A stretch of 64,000 bases of DNA. Origin: Quadrisphaera sp. DSM 44207. GTDB lineage: Bacteria > Actinomycetota > Actinomycetes > Actinomycetales > Quadrisphaeraceae. The stretch covers positions 1 through 64,000 of the forward strand of contig NZ_FNKA01000001.1 of assembly GCF_900101335.1 (NCBI RefSeq), given 5' to 3'. A program made the position numbers and the translations under genes. The notes under the pieces were generated by a model that saw only the letters and a program-made list of their open reading frames with translations, did not search any database and was not told where the DNA came from. The first letter of the stretch is position 1, and each line of letters opens with the position of its first letter. Positions 3,972 to 15,300 of this stretch are shown here, in pieces.

Positions 3972-4147
3972 GAGTCGCGCTCGCCACCTGTGGCAACCGC
4001 GAGGGATCTGTTCCTGAGCAGTGATGCCGACGATGGACGATGGGTGATGAAGGTCACTACTAGTCCCCGGTGTCGCAAGGGCGTGGTTTGTACCGCGCTC
4101 ATGAGATGAGCTTGACCATCGCACGGGGGTAGCGATTACTTCGTCGG

Positions 4148-4184
4148 GCCCCCGTCGACCCCTTCCTAGGTCGGCGGGGGCTTT
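4148..4184. terminator. Hairpin terminator between glnA and cas6e
   Basis: Arm GCCCCCGTCGACC (4148-4160) pairs with GGTCGGCGGGGGC (4169-4181) through 12 Watson-Crick pairs and one G-U, around an 8-nt loop. TTT follows at 4182-4184. It lies about 180 bp beyond the glnA stop and about 120 bp beyond the leftward cas6e stop, so it could end either transcript; the short T run favours the glnA direction. Confidence 0.7.
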
Positions 4185-4245
4185 GTCGTGCAGCAGGGCA
4201 TGGTCCTCCATCACCATCCCCCGGACGGCAGCGGACTACCGATCC

Positions 4246-4261
4246 CCTCACATATGTGAGG
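4246..4261. promoter_or_regulatory. 16-bp perfect palindrome, possible operator
   Basis: CCTCACATATGTGAGG is fully palindromic and AT-rich at its centre within GC-rich DNA, as expected for a dimeric repressor site. No gene starts beside it; the nearest feature is the cas6e 3' end, 40 bp away. It might be left over from a lost gene. Function is unknown. Confidence 0.4.
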
Positions 4262-4300
4262 AGCCGTAATGACGTCCGACTACGGCCACCATGGCTTGGG

Positions 4301-4954
4301 TCACGGCGTACCAACGGGGATGACGCTGAGTAGACCCAGGCCGTACGCCTTGCCAGGGCCGATGCCCGTCCGCACAGCTGTGAGCAGTAGGTCCAGGTCT
4401 TGCACTATCGCGAGCCCCTCGATGCGCTGCGCCCGGTGCGTGATCCGCTGGCCCCGAGGCGCCTGTGGGCGGGCACCATCGATCCCGGGTGCCGGGGTGA
4501 TCTGCACCAGCTGACCAGTCAGGTCCAGGCCTGCGGCCGTGGCCTTGCGCTGCCACCAAGCATGGACGTCGTTGTAGGCGATCAGAGCGACGCGCTTGCC
4601 CTTGAGCTCACCGACAGCTGCGCGTTTGGCCGGGCTGGCGGTCAGTGAGTAGCGCACTAGCCGTCCCAGGGTGAGCGCCGCGAAGAATTGGGTCATGGAC
4701 AAAGAGCGAACGGAGGAGCAGTAGCCGTCGGGCAGGCGTTCGTAGATGGCCTCGCCGCCGGTCTGGATGAGCAGGCGGGGCCCGGTGGAGGTGTCCTCGA
4801 TCCGGAACAGAGTTCGGGTCGAGGCGCGCGGATCCGGGCCGAGCCCGTCCGGGAGCAGACTCATCACGCGCTGGTGCAGCGCGTGGGCGTCGGCCAAGTC
4901 GTGCTGGACGGCGCGGTGGCGGGGGTTGAGCGTCAACTGGATCAACGTGGTCAT
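4301..4954 (-). CDS. cas6e: Type I-E CRISPR RNA endonuclease Cas6e
   Basis: The 217-aa protein cuts the CRISPR precursor within each repeat and stays bound to the 3' hairpin of the crRNA as part of Cascade. Two RAMP/ferredoxin-like halves are visible: the N-terminal part with DAHALHQRVMSLLPD, where the conserved His (residue 27) is the likely catalytic base, and the C-terminal Gly-rich loop GIGPGKAYGLGLLSV. It is the last gene of the leftward operon, 37 bp after cas5e. Family members usually have about 200-230 aa. No cas1 follows. Confidence 0.95.
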   Translation of the reverse strand: MTTLIQLTLNPRHRAVQHDLADAHALHQRVMSLLPDGLGPDPRASTRTLFRIEDTSTGPRLLIQTGGEAIYERLPDGYCSSVRSLSMTQFFAALTLGRLVRYSLTASPAKRAAVGELKGKRVALIAYNDVHAWWQRKATAAGLDLTGQLVQITPAPGIDGARPQAPRGQRITHRAQRIEGLAIVQDLDLLLTAVRTGIGPGKAYGLGLLSVIPVGTP

Positions 4955-4991: not shown

Positions 4992-5834
4992 TCAGGCGAG
5001 GGCGGCCACTGCGCGGTGCAGCGCGCGCCATCCGGGCAGACCGACCCCGGCTGTCGGAACAGTCGCTGTGGCCATGCCGAGGCGCCGGGAGGTGAAGGTG
5101 CGGAGGGTCGGGTCGAAGGACACCGGTACGTCCCGGACCTCGGTGTAGGTTTCGGCCGCGGCGACGCCGTCCAGGTACACAGTCCGTTCCACGCACGGCG
5201 CGCCCGCGTCCACCGCAGCGTCGCGGTCCCGCTCGATCGCGGCGATCGCGGCGAACCAGTCGGAGTCGTCCTCCACCCGAGCGCCCTGTCGCGCAGGGGC
5301 CGGGGCGAGAGCAGGGGCGTAGGCCGGGAGCCGGTGCAGGACCTCCTCCCCAGGCACTGGCGTAGTGCCGAGCAGGAGCGGCAGGGCCGGTGGGCAGGAC
5401 CTGCGACCGAGGAACGGCGGCCAGCGCGGGCGCCGGACCGCCGCCGAGAGCCGGTCGATCAGGTGGTCGTCACCGGTGATGGTGACCACGAAGGTGGCGT
5501 CGGCCAGGTACCGGCGGTGGGTCAGCGCCGGGGACAGTGCGCCCGCTTGCTTGCGCGTCCTGCCTGCGGCGTTGACCAGGGCCCGGTGCTCCGGATACCC
5601 GCCGCCGACCATGTGGAAGTCGGTCATCACCTGACCTGGGGCGTCGGCGCGCACATGGATGGTCAGCCCATCCGCCCAGGACAGGTCCTCCTCACGCGCC
5701 TGGCCGAGCGTACTGGCCAGCAGCCCGACGACTCCGGAGCGAGTCGGATGGGCCATGGTGTCGCGTTCGGTGAACGCCGCCCGCGCACCCCAGGACTGCA
5801 TCGGAGCGCTGAGAATGAGGACTAGAGTGCTCAC
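4992..5834 (-). CDS. cas5e: Type I-E Cascade subunit Cas5e
   Basis: The 280-aa RAMP protein caps the 5' handle of the crRNA in Cascade. The N terminus (LVLILSAPMQSWGARAAF) and the PTRSGVVGLLASTLG segment are typical of CasD/Cas5e. The GTG start at 5834 overlaps the cas7e stop by 4 bases (GTGA), so the two are translationally coupled. At 280 aa it is slightly longer than the E. coli protein, mostly in the central region. Confidence 0.95.
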   Translation of the reverse strand: MSTLVLILSAPMQSWGARAAFTERDTMAHPTRSGVVGLLASTLGQAREEDLSWADGLTIHVRADAPGQVMTDFHMVGGGYPEHRALVNAAGRTRKQAGALSPALTHRRYLADATFVVTITGDDHLIDRLSAAVRRPRWPPFLGRRSCPPALPLLLGTTPVPGEEVLHRLPAYAPALAPAPARQGARVEDDSDWFAAIAAIERDRDAAVDAGAPCVERTVYLDGVAAAETYTEVRDVPVSFDPTLRTFTSRRLGMATATVPTAGVGLPGWRALHRAVAALA

Positions 5835-7048
5835 GCCACCGGCTCCCGGACCAACGCGGCCAGGTCGCAGGAGGCGAGCGCGGCGGTGGCCAAAGCGCCG
5901 GGGCCGCCGCTGACCCGGTCCCCGAACGCCGCGTTCAGGGCCTTGACCTGGTCCGGGTCGGTGGTCACCGCATTGAGGTGCCCAGACCAGACCGGACTGT
6001 CCCCGTAGGCATCAGCGATCAAGGTGGCGTGCTCGGTCAGCAGGTGCACCGCAGGCAGCAGGTAGCCCTGTCCGTCGTAGGTGACGGCACGCTCGAACGC
6101 GGCGGCGTAGGACAGCGGCTGGTCCTCGCGCACCTGCACCACGACCAGGTTGGGTCGGGTGTTCGGTGCGGTGGCCGTGCTCTTGCCGGAGGGCAGGGAG
6201 GAGACGAAGGAGGAGATGAACTGGGCGGCTAAGTCGTGGGCGAGCGCGGGGTCGCCGGTGTTGGTGGTCAAGTGCTCCAGATCCACGGTGGCGTAGCGGT
6301 AGAAGGTGCCGGTCGCGAACTCGGCCGCGCCTAGGTGCCCGGCGCCGGTGTTCTCGTCCTGGGTGTAGTCGTCCACTGCGGTGAAGTAGTCGAACTCCGC
6401 CGCGGCCTGGTGGACGGTGAAGGCATGGGCGACCTGCACACCGCCTTCGACGTTCGCGGTCGGCAGTGCGGCGATCATCCGGCCGAACACGGTGACCAGG
6501 CCACGGGGACTCTTGATCACCTCGCTGAGGGCTGCACGGATCTTCTTGAGTTCGGGGCCGTCCTTCTTGCTGGGCCTGCCCTTGGCGGCCACGGCTTGGA
6601 GGACCTCGCCCCTGTGCGTAGTGACGATCGCTGCGAGGTCGGCGTACTGGGACTCGGTGAGGAACAGCAGCACGTTCGCGGAGGAAACCGTGCTGCCGGT
6701 CACCTCGCCGTCCGCGGCGTCACCGCTGGCGTCCTGGGCGTCCTTGTAAGGGGCGAAGACGACCTCGGCGGCGTGGGTGGCGTCCTCGCGCGACCATCCG
6801 GCGTCGGTGAGGTGGGTGGTGAGGATGTCGAACGGCCGGCGGGTCCTGATCGCCCGGTCGTAGCGGGCGTGGCCCTGCAGTGCCCGCTGCATGTGCTCGC
6901 GCGTGGCGCGCTTCCAGCACTGGCTGGACACTCGCAGCCGCTGCACCGCGCCGTAGGTGAGGGCCTTCGGCGAGCCCAGGTCGTCCCGGTTGAGGTTGCT
7001 GAACGGAACGGTCTGGAGGACGTGGATGTCGATGTAGCGAGCGGTCAC
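5831..7048 (-). CDS. cas7e: Type I-E Cascade backbone subunit Cas7e
   Basis: The 405-aa protein polymerises (six copies in E. coli) along the spacer part of the crRNA. The N terminus YIDIHVLQTVPFSNLNRDD, then SPKALTYGAVQRLRVSSQC with WKRATR, is diagnostic of CasC/Cse4. FDYFTAVDDY and the DLEHL segment also fit the family. The GTG start at 7048 has only a weak purine-rich sequence upstream and lies 61 bp after cse2, the largest gap inside the operon. The 3' end overlaps cas5e by 4 bases. Confidence 0.97.
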   Translation of the reverse strand: MTARYIDIHVLQTVPFSNLNRDDLGSPKALTYGAVQRLRVSSQCWKRATREHMQRALQGHARYDRAIRTRRPFDILTTHLTDAGWSREDATHAAEVVFAPYKDAQDASGDAADGEVTGSTVSSANVLLFLTESQYADLAAIVTTHRGEVLQAVAAKGRPSKKDGPELKKIRAALSEVIKSPRGLVTVFGRMIAALPTANVEGGVQVAHAFTVHQAAAEFDYFTAVDDYTQDENTGAGHLGAAEFATGTFYRYATVDLEHLTTNTGDPALAHDLAAQFISSFVSSLPSGKSTATAPNTRPNLVVVQVREDQPLSYAAAFERAVTYDGQGYLLPAVHLLTEHATLIADAYGDSPVWSGHLNAVTTDPDQVKALNAAFGDRVSGGPGALATAALASCDLAALVREPVA

Positions 7049-7109: not shown

Positions 7110-7718
7110 TCAGCCCGAGGTGACCGTGGTGGAGGCCGTCACTGGGGCGTTGAGGTCAGCGGGCTGCAGGTCGCGGTAGAAGTCGCTCATCCACCGCTTG
7201 CTGATCTCCGCCGACCGGGTCGGCCAACGGAACAGGTCCCGGGTCAGGGCGGCGAAGTCGATCCGCTGGCCTGCGGCCGTCACGGCGCTGAGGATCTGCG
7301 GTAGGTGCTGGTAGAGCAGCGCGTCGCCGGGGGCGCGCCCAGCCGCCATCAGCCGGGTCTCGGCCGAGGTCTCCGCGATCCGCGTTCCGCCACCACCGCG
7401 CACAGCTGCCGCCAGCGCCTGCCCGAGCCGCGATCCCCGCGAACCGTCGGTGTGTGGTGCGCGGTCGTAGGTAGCCACCCACGCGGCCGTCTGGTACAGC
7501 ACCGCCTCCCGGTGCGCGCTGCTGCTCTCCCCGACCCAGGCCGCCAGGTACCGGTGAGCGGTGATCGCCTCCGCGGGGCGGCGGCGCGCGGCTCGGCGGA
7601 GCGCGGCGCGCGCCCCGGGATCCATGCACACCCGGCGCAGGTAGGCGACGAAGTCCTCGGCGAAACCGGGCGGCCGCGCGGAGGGTGACGGCTGGCTCTG
7701 CGGGGTCGGGTCACTCAT
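7110..7718 (-). CDS. cse2: Type I-E Cascade small subunit Cse2 (CasB)
   Basis: The 202-aa protein forms the inner belly dimer of Cascade that stabilises the target strand. The alpha-helical sequence contains PGARAALRRAARRRP and a basic segment WRTRS-like (FRWPTRSAEISKRW) near the C terminus, matching CasB proteins. The ATG at 7718 is chosen because GGGAGA lies 8 nt upstream. It overlaps the cas8e stop by 8 bases. A longer frame to 7748 exists but would overlap cas8e by 38 bases. Confidence 0.92.
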   Translation of the reverse strand: MSDPTPQSQPSPSARPPGFAEDFVAYLRRVCMDPGARAALRRAARRRPAEAITAHRYLAAWVGESSSAHREAVLYQTAAWVATYDRAPHTDGSRGSRLGQALAAAVRGGGGTRIAETSAETRLMAAGRAPGDALLYQHLPQILSAVTAAGQRIDFAALTRDLFRWPTRSAEISKRWMSDFYRDLQPADLNAPVTASTTVTSG

Positions 7719-9360
7719 CAGCAGTGTCTCCCTGGATGGTGTCGTCAACGGCAGCAGAAAGGCTGATCGACGAGCCCACCGGTGGCACCTGGCGCAGCGA
7801 CGGGCGGGGCATTGGGCGGTGCCTAATCACGGCGCGCAGGCCACGCGGGTCCTGCACCGGCCGGGTGAGCTGGTCGTAGAGGTCGACGCTGATCCGGCGC
7901 AGCAGCACTGGGGCGTCGGCGACGGTCTTGGCGAACGCTGCACCACCGGGGGCACTCAACGCCCGGTCGAAGACCGCGTAAGCGCGCTGCCAGTACAGAC
8001 CGGTGCCAGCTTGCGCCCAGGCCCGCGCAGCCTTGCCCTTGGGGTCGAGGCTGCGGGCATCGCGCAGCGCCCGGTAGAGGGCGTCGGAGAGGACCGCGAA
8101 CTCCCTTTCGGCGGCGGCCACCCAGCCCGGGACCGCGGTGCGGTATTCGTGCGCGCTCGCGTCCTCGGGGTTGGCCGCCGCGGACTCGAACACTTGCGGA
8201 TACATCGCCTCCATCCAGTCGTGATCGATGGCTTGGAAGGGGTGCTGGACGAAGGCGTAGGCAGCGATCCGGACTCGCTTGAGCACTGCCGGAGGCAACC
8301 CGGCCAACGCCACAGCGACCTGCGGCTGCTGGTACTCCGCGGGGTCACGAACCGCGCCCTGCGCTGAGGCGAGGAGCGCGGGCAAGTCTCGCCACAAATC
8401 CCGATCCAAGCTGGCGGGACGCGCGATCCGATCCTTCTTCTCCTGCTTGTACGACAGGTACGGGTCCCATCCGACGAGGTTGCCCGCCGTCTTGTCGGCG
8501 AACCGCCACGTGAAGTACCCACCGGTTACGGCGACCTGGCCGCGCTGATCGACGCCAGGTATCAGCAAAAGAGCGTGCCCGGAGTCGTTGGCGAGCAGGC
8601 CGATGATCCCCATCGGGGACGGCTTGACCCCGTCCGGATCCGGCAGTGTGTCGGTCTCCCACTCGGCCAGGTCCGGGCCTGACCCGAGGTGGACGGTCAC
8701 CGGGGGCACCAGGTGCGCCAGCAGCGTCTCGAACAGGCTCACCCCGAGCGGGTGGTAGGACACCCGAGCGCGCAGCGGTCCGGTGTAGGTGAAGTGCTTC
8801 GAGGATGCCTTGCCGGGCAGAGCCCGCGACTGGGTCGTGCCGTTCGGGCCGTAGAACTGGCGCACGAGGAGCGCTTCAACTGCCTCGGCGATGGTCGCGG
8901 TGCCCGGCGCTGCGTCGTGGAACGGCGAGAAGAGAGTGTGCCCGTTTCCCGAGGGACGGTTCGGAATGAGCGCGTTCATGCCCTTGACGTCATCGCACTC
9001 CCCGGCCAGGCGCGGCTCCTGACGCCAGGGTCGGTCGGCGTCGAACAAATCGAACCGCGCGTGCCACCGGGTGAAGTACGTCGCCACCCGCGCCGGGTCG
9101 AACCGGCCCGCCGTCAGCGCGGCGTTGCGCGCAGCGTGCCAGTCATCCACGCCGACGGCCGGGTCGTCCAGGCCAGTAATCCGGTAGGCCAGCGCGGTGA
9201 GGATCCGCAACAGGCTGGCCTGACCGGGCGGAGACGCCATCGTCACCGTGGCGATCTCGTGCGCGCGGACGAACACCTCACGCAGGCTGACCCGCTGGGG
9301 GATGCCGTCCACAAGGGTCACCGGGAGCCACGGGTCGGTGTCCAGGTGGAACGAGGTCAC
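7711..9360 (-). CDS. cas8e: Type I-E Cascade large subunit Cas8e (Cse1, CasA)
   Basis: The 549-aa protein recognises the PAM and recruits Cas3. The N terminus FHLDTDPWLPVTLVDG is typical of Cse1, followed by SLREVFVRAHEIATV, the FDLFDADRPWRQEP segment and NTHF-like FSPFHDA, and an alpha-helical C-terminal bundle. Size is normal (about 500-560 aa). The GTG start overlaps the cas3 stop by 4 bases (GTGA), showing tight coupling within the effector operon. Confidence 0.95.
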   Translation of the reverse strand: MTSFHLDTDPWLPVTLVDGIPQRVSLREVFVRAHEIATVTMASPPGQASLLRILTALAYRITGLDDPAVGVDDWHAARNAALTAGRFDPARVATYFTRWHARFDLFDADRPWRQEPRLAGECDDVKGMNALIPNRPSGNGHTLFSPFHDAAPGTATIAEAVEALLVRQFYGPNGTTQSRALPGKASSKHFTYTGPLRARVSYHPLGVSLFETLLAHLVPPVTVHLGSGPDLAEWETDTLPDPDGVKPSPMGIIGLLANDSGHALLLIPGVDQRGQVAVTGGYFTWRFADKTAGNLVGWDPYLSYKQEKKDRIARPASLDRDLWRDLPALLASAQGAVRDPAEYQQPQVAVALAGLPPAVLKRVRIAAYAFVQHPFQAIDHDWMEAMYPQVFESAAANPEDASAHEYRTAVPGWVAAAEREFAVLSDALYRALRDARSLDPKGKAARAWAQAGTGLYWQRAYAVFDRALSAPGGAAFAKTVADAPVLLRRISVDLYDQLTRPVQDPRGLRAVIRHRPMPRPSLRQVPPVGSSISLSAAVDDTIQGDTADE

Positions 9361-12300
9361 GGTGCTCCTGGGGGTGAGTAGTGCATGGTCAGGCCGCGGT
9401 CATGGTGCAGGTGGAACGTCATTCGGTCGTGGACGGCGGCCCTGCTGCCGCTGGTCTCGGGATCGGTGGTGAACGGCACGACGAGGACGTCTCGTAGTCG
9501 CTGATCCGATGCCCACGCGGTGGGCCGCAGCGCTTCCTGCCAGGCGGCGACGCGCCCGACCCAGCCGCCGGTGGACGGCACGGTGATCGTGTGCTCGACG
9601 ACCGTGCGGACCTGTTCGGGGGCGAATCGGCCTCGCGCAGCGTCCCCGGCAGTGGGTAGGGCCACGTTGCACGCTTGATCGAGCCACCAGGTCGACCCAG
9701 TCGACCAGATGGGGAGGACGGTGACCGTTTCCATCTCGTACCGGGCGGTGAATAAGCCCAAGGCGGTGTCGGCGTCCTCCGGCGAGGTCATCTCGGCTAA
9801 GTCCTGCACCGCACGCGGATGCGGAACCATGGCGATGTGCGCGGCGGCGCGCATCTGCTGCTCACGTGTACTCGCACTGCTCGACGCCTGGCGGTCCTGC
9901 TCGGCCAGGATGTCCAGGTCGGTCGCGAAGTCAGCGTCGTAAACCGCGTCGATGAGCTCCTGAACGTCCTCCGGAATCCGCACCCCGGCCCGGTGCGCCG
10001 CCAGGTGCTTGGTCAGAACCTGGTAGCTACGGGTTAAAAGGATTTGGTCGTACGGCGCGCAGTCCCGGTCGGCCAGGTTCTGCCCGTCGGCGTCGATCCC
10101 CGCGAACACGGTCAGTGATGGTGACTCGTACTTGACGGGCCGGGTCACCGGGATGAACGCGGCGTCCGGCGTGGGCGCGTAGACGGCGTGCCGGTGGCAA
10201 CGTCCGGCGCGTTGAAGCAGCATCGCCATCGGCGCCAGGTCGGTCACGACCGCGTCCATGTCCAGGTCCAGGGACTGCTCGACGACCTGGGTCGCGACCA
10301 GGATCGAACGCACCGGCCGCGGCGCGGCACCACAGCAAGGGGTGGTGCGCGAGTGCTTGCCGTACAGCCGGTTCACCTCGGCGGCGTGCCGGACCCGGTC
10401 TTTGACGGGGAAGCGGGAGTGCATCAGGCGCACCGGCGTCCCCGACTCCGGCGCGACCTCCTGCACGACTTCGGTCAGGGCGTCGTAGACCGCGACCGCG
10501 GCGGCCACGGTGTTGCAGACGACGAGGATGTTCCCGTCCGCCTTGCCCCGCGCGACCGGGCCGACCCGAGCCACGACGGCCTCGACCAAGCCGTCGACGT
10601 TCCCGCGCTGGTCGACCGGGTACCTGCCCACGGCGACACTGACGGTCGTGGAACGGTCGGTCACTGGAATCGACCCGCTCGACGCAACCTGGCGGGTGAT
10701 GTCGAAGTACATCCACCCCGGATAGGACGGCACCGTCCGGTCTGGGTCCAAGCGGATGCCCGCCCCGTCGGCGTAGGCGTCCACGAGCGACCGCGCCAAC
10801 CGCCCGGACAAGGTCGCCGACAGCAGCACCACCGGCACCCCGGCCGCCCCGAGCCAGGCCAGCACCCGGTGCAGCAGAGCCTGCATGTAGGCGTCGTAGG
10901 AATGCGCCTCATCCACGATGACGACCTTGCGGCTGACCCCGAGCAGCCTCAGCGGCTGCCACTTGCCGCGCAACCCCATCGCCAGCAGCTGGTCGATGGT
11001 GCCGACCGCGTTGGGCGCCAAGCCTGCGCGCTTGGCACCACTCATCCACGTGGTCACCTCCACCCGCCCACCACTGTGATCGGACCCGTGTCCAGTCCCC
11101 GCCACTCCGTCGCTCGACGCGGCGGAGTCGCAGTCGTCCAGCATCGCGAACTCGTCCTGCGCACCAACGGCGGAGTCCGGCGCCTGCGTGGGGCGCGTGG
11201 TGGCGACATACTCTTCGTTCAACGACGCGAGGGAGTGCATCAGCGACAACCGTGTCGGCTCCTCGAACGCTGAGGCGATGAACTCCCGCGTCCGCAAGTA
11301 CATCGCGTCCGTGGTCGCCATCGTCGGCAGCGCGAGGTGAACTCCGCTCGCCCCGGACGCCTCGCCCAACACCGCCGCGGCATGTAACGCCGCCTCGGTC
11401 TTCCCGTCCCCGGTCGGCGCCATCACCACGAAGATCCCCGGACCACGCACCAGGCCCGGGAGAACCTCGGCCGCGGTCACTTGCGGCCCCCGCGGGATGA
11501 ACCCAGAGAAGTGAGTCGTGAACGGACGGCGGCGCAACCGCGGCCCAGCAAGCCCCGAGTCCGTCAATGCCCGCCGCGCACGTCCTTCAGCGGCGGCGTA
11601 GTGCCGCGCCAGCTCAGCACGACCCAGGTCAGCCGGATTCAACGGCAGCATGGCGAGGGCGGCCTGGATGACGTCTACCTGCGACATCAGCCAGTCCGCG
11701 GTGATCACGACCCCGGTCAGCAGGGACGCGACCTCCACCGGCATACGCGCCAGGTCCGCACCCATCCATCGGCGTCCGAGCAGGACGGTCTCGACCCGCT
11801 CCAGGAGCGCCTCGCGAGTCGCCCGCCAGCGCCCGACCTGGTCCTCGTGCCAACCCTCCAGGCGGGGCTCCCACGTCCCGGATCCGAGCCCGTCCGACGT
11901 CATTGCCTCCGGGCGCGGGAAGACCCCGTGATGACCGCCCACGACCTGCCCCAGCCGCCACCCGACCTGCGGCGCCCGAGCCAGCAGTCCGTCCGCGACG
12001 AACCGACCGACCAGGTGCGCGAATCCCGCTGACGCGTGCCCGACCAAGTAATGCGGCAGGACCGGGCCCGGCGCCTGCCCGGTCAACGCCGTGAACGCGG
12101 ATGCGGACAGCGCCTGAAAGGCGGGCACGGCCTTCCCCACGTCATGCCACGCCGCGACCACTTGCACGAGGCCCCGGACCTCCGCCGCTGTCAGCCCCGT
12201 CCGAGCGAGGACCTCCCGCTGCGAGGACGTCAGGACCTCATCGATCATCAGACCCGCCGCCGCGGCCACGTCCAGCAGGTGCGCCTCCAGCGGGTAGACC

Positions 12301-12410
12301 CGCCCACCGGCCAAGCCACGCTGCTTGCCCCACACCAGCCCCGGTACGAATGTCGCCGCCGCACCGGCCGCTCCCGACGGCGGGGGCGGGCGGTGCTTCC
12401 TGATCGGCAT
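9357..12410 (-). CDS. cas3: CRISPR-associated nuclease/helicase Cas3 (HD domain N-terminal)
   Basis: The 1017-aa protein degrades target DNA after Cascade binding. An N-terminal HD nuclease domain has His44, His89-Asp90 (VVAAWHDVGK) and later His residues in LVGHASAGFAH and GGHHG. The SF2 helicase has Walker A APTGDGKTEA (331-340), DEAH at 500-503 and LLSATLSG. Motif VI is in LLQRAGRCHRH. All catalytic motifs appear intact. No Shine-Dalgarno precedes ATG 12410, so the transcript may be leaderless. It heads the effector operon and diverges from the CRISPR array across a 121-bp leader. Confidence 0.97.
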   Translation of the reverse strand: MPIRKHRPPPPSGAAGAAATFVPGLVWGKQRGLAGGRVYPLEAHLLDVAAAAGLMIDEVLTSSQREVLARTGLTAAEVRGLVQVVAAWHDVGKAVPAFQALSASAFTALTGQAPGPVLPHYLVGHASAGFAHLVGRFVADGLLARAPQVGWRLGQVVGGHHGVFPRPEAMTSDGLGSGTWEPRLEGWHEDQVGRWRATREALLERVETVLLGRRWMGADLARMPVEVASLLTGVVITADWLMSQVDVIQAALAMLPLNPADLGRAELARHYAAAEGRARRALTDSGLAGPRLRRRPFTTHFSGFIPRGPQVTAAEVLPGLVRGPGIFVVMAPTGDGKTEAALHAAAVLGEASGASGVHLALPTMATTDAMYLRTREFIASAFEEPTRLSLMHSLASLNEEYVATTRPTQAPDSAVGAQDEFAMLDDCDSAASSDGVAGTGHGSDHSGGRVEVTTWMSGAKRAGLAPNAVGTIDQLLAMGLRGKWQPLRLLGVSRKVVIVDEAHSYDAYMQALLHRVLAWLGAAGVPVVLLSATLSGRLARSLVDAYADGAGIRLDPDRTVPSYPGWMYFDITRQVASSGSIPVTDRSTTVSVAVGRYPVDQRGNVDGLVEAVVARVGPVARGKADGNILVVCNTVAAAVAVYDALTEVVQEVAPESGTPVRLMHSRFPVKDRVRHAAEVNRLYGKHSRTTPCCGAAPRPVRSILVATQVVEQSLDLDMDAVVTDLAPMAMLLQRAGRCHRHAVYAPTPDAAFIPVTRPVKYESPSLTVFAGIDADGQNLADRDCAPYDQILLTRSYQVLTKHLAAHRAGVRIPEDVQELIDAVYDADFATDLDILAEQDRQASSSASTREQQMRAAAHIAMVPHPRAVQDLAEMTSPEDADTALGLFTARYEMETVTVLPIWSTGSTWWLDQACNVALPTAGDAARGRFAPEQVRTVVEHTITVPSTGGWVGRVAAWQEALRPTAWASDQRLRDVLVVPFTTDPETSGSRAAVHDRMTFHLHHDRGLTMHYSPPGAP

Positions 12411-12531
12411 GCACGGAGGATGCCCGACCCGTCCGACAGTACGATCAGTGCAGCCCGCTGCACTCCGGGCCTACAACACCAAAGTGAAGCTAGAACGGAC
12501 CCTGCCAACGCAACGCCGCAGGTCAACAAGG
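12411..12531 (+). promoter_or_regulatory. CRISPR leader and divergent cas3/array promoter region
   Basis: This 121-bp segment lies between the cas3 start and the first repeat. Repeat polarity (5' GCCGTCCCC, 3' GGTGATCC) matches the transcribed strand of other I-E repeats, so the array is read rightward from here, and repeats decay at the opposite end. It contains an inverted repeat AGTGCAG-CCCG-CTGCACT at 12447-12464, a possible operator, and a comparatively AT-rich patch (CCTACAACACCAAAGTGAAG, about 12470-12489) that could hold the array promoter. Confidence 0.7.
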
Positions 12532-14271
12532 GCCGTCCCCATGCACGTGGGGGTGATCCGGGGTGCTGGACCAGCTGCGAGTTCGACGTGGTGCCGTCCC
12601 CATGCACGTGGGGGTGATCCCCTGTACGACGACGCCGGCGCGCGGATCAGCCTCGCGCCGTCCCCATGCACGTGGGGGTGATCCCACGTTCTTCGCGCGG
12701 GTGTGGCAGCCGGCGCTGCCGTCCCCATGCACGTGGGGGTGATCCCCACACGGCGAAGGCCACCCATCCCACCAGGAAGCCGTCCCCATGCACGTGGGGG
12801 TGATCCGCAACTTCACCGGCCTGGCGACGGGCGCGCAGGGCCGTCCCCATGCACGTGGGGGTGATCCCGAGCGCCACACCCCGCTGCCGTCCGAGGAGGG
12901 GCCGTCCCCATGCACGTGGGGGTGATCCGACGAGATCCAAGAGTGGATCCAGGACGCCGCCGCCGTCCCCATGCACGTGGGGGTGATCCGCGGTAGACGC
13001 GCACGAACCCGGCCGCGGGAAGGCCGTCCCCATGCACGTGGGGGTGATCCCGTCACGGTCACGGCGGTCGCGGTGGCGACGATGCCGTCCCCATGCACGT
13101 GGGGGTGATCCGGTGAGGTCGACCTCCATCACCCGCCAGCAGCCGCCGTCCCCATGCACGTGGGGGTGATCCGACGCCCCACAGGATCGAGCGCACGTCG
13201 TCCTGGCCGTCCCCATGCACGTGGGGGTGATCCCTCGCCGTACCCGTTCTTGGTCCGCCCGGTCCAGCCGTCCCCATGCACGTGGGGGTGATCCTGCTGA
13301 TCATCGAGGACGACGACCGCATCCGCCGCCGTCCCCATGCACGTGGGGGTGATCCACCGCTCCCGCCCCGAGAGGACGACACCCCCTCGCCGTCCCCATG
13401 CACGTGGGGGTGATCCCCTAGCTGCCGCGCCCTGGGCGGGCCGCGACGCGCCGTCCCCATGCACGTGGGGGTGATCCCAACTCCATCGCGCCGAGGGCGA
13501 GCTGGATGACGCCGTCCCCATGCACGTGGGGGTGATCCTCCGGATGCGCGCCGCGCCGCCCGCCGGTTAGCGGCCGTCCCCATGCACGTGGGGGTGATCC
13601 GGCGGATCTGGACCCGGCTACGGGCAAGGTGGTGCCGTCCCCATGCACGTGGGGGTGATCCCGGCGTACTCGACACCTGCGTAAGGCAGCATCTGCCGTC
13701 CCCATGCACGTGGGGGTGATCCCAGTTCGATCGAGCGATACGCACATACCCGACAGCCGTCCCCATGCACGTGGGGGTGATCCGACGGTCCACGAGCGCA
13801 TCGAGCGCGTCCGTGCGCCGTCCCCATGCACGTGGGGGTGATCCGGTTGAAGCCCTATCGGACAAGGCGTTCCGGCTGCCGTCCCCATGCACGTGGGGGT
13901 GATCCCGCGGCGACCGCGTCCACCCCGATATCCCGGTAGCCGTCCCCATGCACGTGGGGGTGATCCCGGCACCGGCGCTCCAGAGATGGTGATCCCGAAG
14001 CCGTCCCCATGCACGTGGGGGTGATCCCGCGTCGGTCGGGAAGTCCCCGGACCCGGCGGTGCCGTCCCCATGCACGTGGGGGTGATCCCGCGAGGTTCCC
14101 GATGCCGTTCGCGGTGCCGTCGCCGTCCCCATGCACGTAGGGGTGATCCCCCGGAGGCTCCGGCGTCGTTGACGCGGACCCGGCCGTCCCCATGCACGTG
14201 GGGGTGATCCGGAGTACGGCACGTCCTCGTAGGTGCGGGCGGCGCCGTCCCCATGCACGTGGGGGTGATCC

Positions 14272-14332
14272 CACCGCCATGACGTCGGCGGTGAGCACTC
14301 CGGTGCCGTCCCCATGCACGTGGGGGTAATCC
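14272..14332 (+). repeat. Spacer-repeat unit duplicated at 15004-15064
   Basis: Spacer 29 (14272-14304) and spacer 41 (15004-15036) are identical over 33 nt. Each is followed by the same variant repeat ending GTAATCC (14305-14332 and 15037-15064), found nowhere else in the array. The shared rare variant shows that a 61-nt block was copied within the array, rather than acquired twice. Confidence 0.95.
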
Positions 14333-15064
14333 GGGCGATGCACGCAAGGCCCACACGAAAGCGCTGCCGTCCCCATGCACGTGGGGGTGATCCCCAGAAC
14401 ACGTCCAGGTCCGTCTGCTGGGAGGTGCCGTCCCCATGCACGTGGGGGTGATCCGACGCCGTCACCACCCGCCACGACCTGCGCAAGGCCGTCCCCATGC
14501 ACGTGGGGGTGATCCGACCGTCACCCTCTACCCGCCCGTGCCGGTGGAGCCGTCCCCATGCACGTGGGGGTGATCCCAGCCCGGAGGCCAGGACCCACAT
14601 CTCCGGATCGCCGTCCCCATGCACGTGGGGGTGATCCGGTCAGCTCGGCGATGCGGCCGAAGGCGAGCAGGCCGTCCCCATGCACGTGGGGGTGATCCGG
14701 CGGCCAGGCCCTGCGGGGTGTCCCCGAAGACGCCGTCCCCATGCACGTGGGGGTGATCCGTCGGTCGATGCGCAGCTGCTGCGCGTCGCCCCGCCGTCCC
14801 CATGCACGTGGGGGTGATCCGGCGCCCGGCAGCTGCCCGGAGGTGAAGCCGAGGCCGTCCCCATGCACGTGGGGGTGATCCGAGGGCGACGCGGTGCCCG
14901 CCTCCCACGTGGAGACCGTCCCCATGCACGTGGGGGTGATCCCGTCTCGGCGGAGGACGTCGGGCGCCTGGCGACGCCGTCCCCATGCACGTGGGGGTGA
15001 TCCCACCGCCATGACGTCGGCGGTGAGCACTCCGGTGCCGTCCCCATGCACGTGGGGGTAATCC

Positions 15065-15218
15065 GGACGTGGGCACCAGCGCTCGCCTCGAAGCGCTGCC
15101 GTCCCCATGCACGTGGGGGTGATCCCTCGCCGCCGAGGCCCGCGCCGAGGCACAGCACGCCGTCCCATGCACGTGGGGGTGATCCGGACGTGGGCACCAG
15201 CGCTCGCCTCGAAGCGCT
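15065..15218 (+). repeat. Identical spacers 42 and 44 near the array end
   Basis: Spacer 42 (15065-15097) and spacer 44 (15186-15218) are identical over 33 nt and flank a single different spacer (43). The repeats at 15159 and 15219 carry small deletions. The leader-distal end has therefore undergone at least two rearrangements. Confidence 0.95.
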
Positions 15219-15300
15219 GCCGTCCCCATGCACGTGGGGGATCCCGTCGGTGCCGGCGTCCTCGCTAACAACCCGCACCGGAGCCGGAAGCCGAAGATCG

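Follow-up and report, generated by a model that had tools for sequence, protein, structure and literature searches.

Duplicated spacers in the leader-distal part of a type I-E CRISPR array of Quadrisphaera sp. DSM 44207, and a second array of the same genome with a similar rearrangement

The 3.2-Mb genome of Quadrisphaera sp. DSM 44207 is assembled in four contigs, and the 64,000-nt stretch of DNA analyzed here (the window) is the start of the 1.28-Mb contig C1. The window carries a CRISPR-Cas locus in which cse1 and cse2 occur together with cas7, cas5, cas6e and cas3, the gene set of type I-E:

4301 to 4954, minus strand: cas6e (Cse3), not followed by cas1 or cas2
4992 to 5834, minus strand: cas5
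5831 to 7048, minus strand: cas7 (Cas_CT1975 family)
7110 to 7748, minus strand: cse2
7711 to 9360, minus strand: cse1 (casA)
9357 to 12410, minus strand: cas3, with HD, helicase and C-terminal domains

Neither cas1 nor cas2 is present in this locus or at positions 3972 to 4300 on its cas6e side, and the neighboring gene on that side is, from its translation, presumably glutamine synthetase-like. Searches of the genome itself found matches to Cas1 and to the type I-E Cas2 on contig C2 only. The window's locus is an effector-only type I-E locus rather than a complete one with its own adaptation genes. In effector genes, leader elements and the form of its repeat it resembles those type I-E loci of the order in which cas1-cas2 adjoin the array, but here the array lies without these genes beside the divergent cas3. 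The array itself has the palindromic 28–29 nt repeat and the period of ~61 nt that characterize type I-E, and its features are as follows:

12411 to 12531, plus strand: leader, between the divergent cas3 and R1, with elements common to type I-E arrays of the order
12532 to 15244, plus strand: type I-E CRISPR array of 45 repeats (R) and 44 spacers (S), leader on the left
14122 to 14149, plus strand: R27, variant GTAGGGG
14272 to 14304, plus strand: S29, identical to S41
14305 to 14332, plus strand: R30, GTAATCC variant shared only with R42
14915 to 14942, plus strand: R40, variant with A as its first base
15004 to 15036, plus strand: S41, identical to S29
15037 to 15064, plus strand: R42, GTAATCC variant; probable source copy, judging from variant rates in surveyed arrays
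15065 to 15097, plus strand: S42, identical to S44
15159 to 15185, plus strand: R44, with a 1-nt deletion (one C missing)
15186 to 15218, plus strand: S44, the last spacer, identical to S42
15219 to 15244, plus strand: R45, the terminal repeat, with a 2-nt deletion

When the array was parsed, 39 of its 45 repeats were exact copies of GCCGTCCCCATGCACGTGGGGGTGATCC, four carried one substitution and two carried deletions, and 42 distinct spacers filled the 44 slots. Within the leader, the motif AAAGTGA lies ~50 nt upstream of R1 and CAGGTCAACAAGG is found at the leader-repeat junction; by eye, similar elements precede many of the order's other type I-E arrays (e.g., L050, L057, L060 and L063). 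Variant repeats number 0 of 26 in R1 to R26 and 6 of 19 in R27 to R45 (Fisher p 0.003, with the split picked post hoc). Together, the leader elements of the left flank and the confinement of variants to R27–R45 place the leader on the left and the S29/S41 region at the leader-distal side, as an earlier sequence-only reading of the window had proposed.

That reading had also described two pairs of identical spacers in the distal part of the array, and here its spacer numbering and coordinates proved correct. S29 and S41 are identical, and R30 and R42, each directly following one of the two copies, are the sole GTAATCC repeats in the array. The exact run common to the two copies measures 92 nt, starts at 14243 and 14975 and ends just beyond the variant repeat, so that the spacer and its private variant repeat appear as one copied stretch of at most 92 nt. 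Apart from these two copies, the genome contains no match to S29 at three or fewer mismatches. Among random pairs of non-terminal repeats in 58 complete surveyed arrays, a common variant was found in 151 of 127,119. R31 to R39 and R41 have the consensus sequence and R40 is a different variant, indicating that GTAATCC was not passed on by the leader repeat from one acquisition to the next. With a private repeat variant copied along with the spacer, acquisition of the same spacer twice is very unlikely for S29/S41. Capture of array DNA by Cas1-Cas2 was rejected as a copying route, since a 33-nt prespacer is too short to bring a variant repeat along.

S42 and S44 are likewise identical and form a second duplicated spacer, with an exact common run of 59 nt. 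Both pairs are identical and non-adjacent, the pattern by which segmental duplication is recognized, but the flanking repeat variant was copied with the spacer only in S29/S41; the repeats flanking S42 and S44 differ, as do the repeat indels of the two copies. The earlier claim of recombination rather than repeated acquisition is accordingly well supported for S29/S41 by the shared private variant, while the sequence of S42/S44 also allows re-acquisition; that this second pair is a duplication is probable from published frequencies. The 1-nt and 2-nt deletions in R44 and R45, reported earlier as decay of the array end, are real but usual, as the last repeat was a variant in 71 of the 90 surveyed arrays complete at the trailer side. 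A degenerate terminal repeat, with substitutions or deletions in the last repeats, is similarly described for Streptococcus agalactiae (PMC4466440).

The spacers that follow the two GTAATCC repeats, S30 (14333 to 14365) and S42 (15065 to 15097), have a common 7-nt 3' end, AAGCGCT, and the likeness extends to 9–10 nt with one indel. A common 3' end of 7 nt was found in 2 of 944 spacer pairs of the C1 array, both being S30 with S42 or S44.

A second type I-E array is located on contig C2, where a complete I-E locus is followed by 135 repeats and one more, decayed repeat (locus and array span the fetched regions L040, C2:846001-866000, and L041, C2:826001-846000). In this array S94 is identical to S134, the last spacer, and an identical variant repeat with three SNPs comes after each (R95 and R135). 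The next spacer, S95, matches the 32 nt of trailer DNA that lie past the terminal repeat; R96 is a hybrid, with its first half from the decayed last repeat and its second half normal; the internal copy of the array end amounts to an exact run of 140 nt. Acquisition could hardly bring trailer DNA and half of a decayed repeat into an array's interior, which suggests that the array end was copied or joined inward. Judged from these sequences, the end would plainly be the source and the interior the copy, and the C2 array is a rarer and clearer instance than the window's duplication. Its degenerate terminal repeat is also found internally, after the same spacer, unlike in the S. agalactiae case as given in PMC4466440. 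S14 and S15 of the C2 array form an identical tandem pair, and S123 and S126 are alike with one mismatch. The spacers preceding the two copies of the array end, S93 and S133, are both 34 nt long, as are 5 of the 134 spacers, and have GCCAG in common; sharing of at least 5 nt in this way occurs in 34 of 8,909 C2 spacer pairs. This likeness, and that of S30 with S42, could reflect tract ends inside spacers or post hoc chance. The C1 and C2 arrays have no spacers in common, their best pair having 11 mismatches and no common 14-mer.

The presence of adaptation genes on C2 may bear on how the window array acquired its spacers. Despite the absence of cas1 and cas2 at the window's locus, the leader-side repeats are uniform and the leader is of the type found in the order, suggesting that the C2 Cas1-Cas2 may serve this array; such adaptation in trans is plausible, and in Flavobacterium columnare it has been demonstrated between two other systems (PMC8092290). 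It is offered as a lead only, as the repeats of the two arrays differ in sequence and the similarity of the whole leaders lies within that of shuffled sequences (alignment score 73; shuffled mean 61, s.d. 5.6, maximum 82). Searches for protospacers of S29 and S42 with 18-nt seeds returned 7 and 4 contigs, respectively, from IMG/VR, of which 9 of 11 had 8 or 9 mismatches in their best alignment over 33 nt and two (L080 and L085) had more than 10; none was a credible target. The whole window array yielded only weak matches against phages (best E 0.07), and its longer matches against plasmids were tandem pieces resembling the repeats of other arrays.

The rearrangements were compared with type I-E arrays of other genomes. 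Cas2 matches were found in 45 of 297 genomes of the order and 67 of 394 of the class, these being overlapping sets. For the order, 37 of 44 other places were fetched, the 7 left out being cut by a contig end; for the class list of 76 places, 60 were fetched, 6 were already in the sample and 10 were left out as short, partial or below the cut-off. Of the resulting 97 other I-E loci, 83 had an array of at least 8 repeats, giving 91 arrays with 3,839 spacers; counts of variant rates and repeat pairs were made on the 58 of these arrays having at least 25 repeats, a complete trailer side and the consensus in at least 60% of repeats. An exact spacer duplicate occurred in 30 of 91 arrays (dispersed in 19, tandem in 17) and involved 124 spacers (3.2%), which agrees with the ~3.3% of spacers reported as duplication candidates in PMC11472070. 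By the rule of the script there were 26 dispersed blocks, 21 of them single units, although tandem runs account for at least 4 of them (L059, one in L060, two in L063). One of the 26 had a common variant repeat and two had differing repeats; the former is a three-spacer block in L064 (genome G202), where S26–S28 equal S59–S61. The duplication in the window array, which shares with published spacer-repeat duplications (PMC8047081, PMC11472070) the identical spacers, the copied repeats and the position in the distal half of the array, is an ordinary kind of event. In another surveyed locus, L048 (G255), the repeats of a long array change in blocks toward the distal end (cores GTGAG, CCTACG and CCCGCG), as if stacked in epochs.

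Duplication of the last spacer was much less common, being found in 1 of 90 trailer-complete arrays (L099, with 10 spacers), and trailer DNA was found inside none of the 91. Both arrays of the present genome duplicate the last spacer (Fisher p 0.0007, post hoc and for two arrays of one genome), and the C2 array has trailer DNA inside as well, unlike the pattern in a review according to which terminal units seldom join rearrangements (PMC8047081). None of the papers listed by literature searches described a trailer end inside a CRISPR array in its title or the opening of its abstract.

The direction of copying in the window array appears to be the reverse of that first proposed. The data do not support an older unit having been copied to the array end, as S29 is the copy nearer the leader and is younger by position. 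In the surveyed arrays the rate of variant repeats rises toward the end, from 3.4% at more than 20 positions away through 9.7% at 10–20 (62 of 638) and 22% at 5–9 to 44% at 2–4 (77 of 174) and 76% for the last repeat. Counted from the end, R42 is repeat 4 and R30 repeat 16, and from these distances and rates an origin of GTAATCC at R42 is favored by ~4.6:1. Transfer of S41-R42 toward the leader to give S29-R30 is likelier than the reverse, on a prior drawn from other arrays. The genus is represented by this genome only, the repeat was found in 0 of 12 other genomes of the family at three or fewer mismatches, and the exact repeat had no match in a wider search of genome contigs; with no related strain carrying this repeat, we infer the order and direction of events in the window array rather than observe them.

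On balance, the window array was probably rearranged by recombination among its almost identical 28-nt repeats, or by template switching there during replication, with a distal source. A nascent strand or recombination tract would enter at the repeat before S41, the presumed source unit being S41-R42, copy S41 and R42, and rejoin a normal repeat between S28 and S30, thereby inserting one unit leaderward without duplicating S30–S40. Similar copying may have given rise to the S42/S44 pair; with S44 as the source, the tract would have left R45 ahead of its 2-nt gap, which would explain why R43 is intact. One round of copying, its two junctions lying within or next to repeats, would suffice for S29/S41 and likewise for the C2 copy; S42/S44 would call for an additional or more complicated event. 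PMC8047081 also proposes that spacers are duplicated and deleted through recombination or slippage between repeats. Copying, by template switching or gene conversion between repeats, is the reading we favor, the C2 array having the same geometry with an unambiguous source and a hybrid junction repeat. Against it stand S42/S44, which lack a shared variant, and the 7-nt 3' end of S30 and S42, which no model accounts for. The consequence for the window array is probably neutral, namely two duplicated memories.

The main rival is a fusion of two arrays that kept a common old end while gaining different spacers in two lineages; one crossover between repeats would join one array up to R30 with the other from S30 onward. 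This is unlikely overall; the partners might be two strains or chromosome copies in one cell, and in the case of C2 the whole end of the first array, trailer DNA included, would be retained inside. Fusion would take one event per array, leave dispersed copies without tandem remnants, and account for both the complete array end in the interior of C2 and its hybrid junction repeat. Against it, each array retains just one shared old spacer, a second strain would be required, of which none is known here, and between-array recombination is described as rare in published reconstructions (PMC11472070, citing Kupczok et al.). Less probable again is a tandem duplication of 12 units, through unequal crossover between sister chromosomes, followed by an 11-unit deletion that left one dispersed unit. 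Such a history yields the same end state as copying; CRISPR arrays are known to undergo both steps, 17 of the 91 surveyed arrays have tandem blocks, and the 34-nt S93 and S133 of C2 with their common GCCAG fit a deletion inside a spacer. The deletions would, however, have removed exactly 11 units in the window array and 39 in C2, compared with a published mean deletion length of 2.7 spacers (PMC11472070), and no other duplicate remains between the copies.

An assembly artefact or a strain-mixing chimera is very improbable, although short-read assembly can be misled by exact repeats as long as those of 92 and 140 nt. The S29-S30 and S40-S41 links must be real DNA, and the assembled order would be the only linear path that uses all of them; the differing indels around S42 and S44 and the low reported contamination (0.14) also argue against this explanation. 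That the same spacers were acquired independently twice is scarcely credible. It could apply in principle to S42/S44, with their differing flanking repeats, but S29/S41 have a common private variant that did not ride on the leader repeat, and of the published duplication candidates 86% were classed as duplications and 1% as re-acquisitions (PMC11472070).

These arrays illustrate that repeat variants can serve as tags: they tell copying from re-acquisition where spacer identity by itself does not. The fossil end and hybrid junction repeat of C2 form an unusually clear trace of inward copying or fusion. A broader and rather doubtful proposal is that the array end is a preferred donor in this lineage, the degenerate terminal unit, otherwise regarded as stable, having been repeatedly copied or fused inward in two arrays; if so, old memories would shift leaderward and array ends would become internal. 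If array ends are copied or fused inward, spacer position would be no safe clock, and trailer-end spacers would be unsafe anchors for typing or for ancestral reconstruction.
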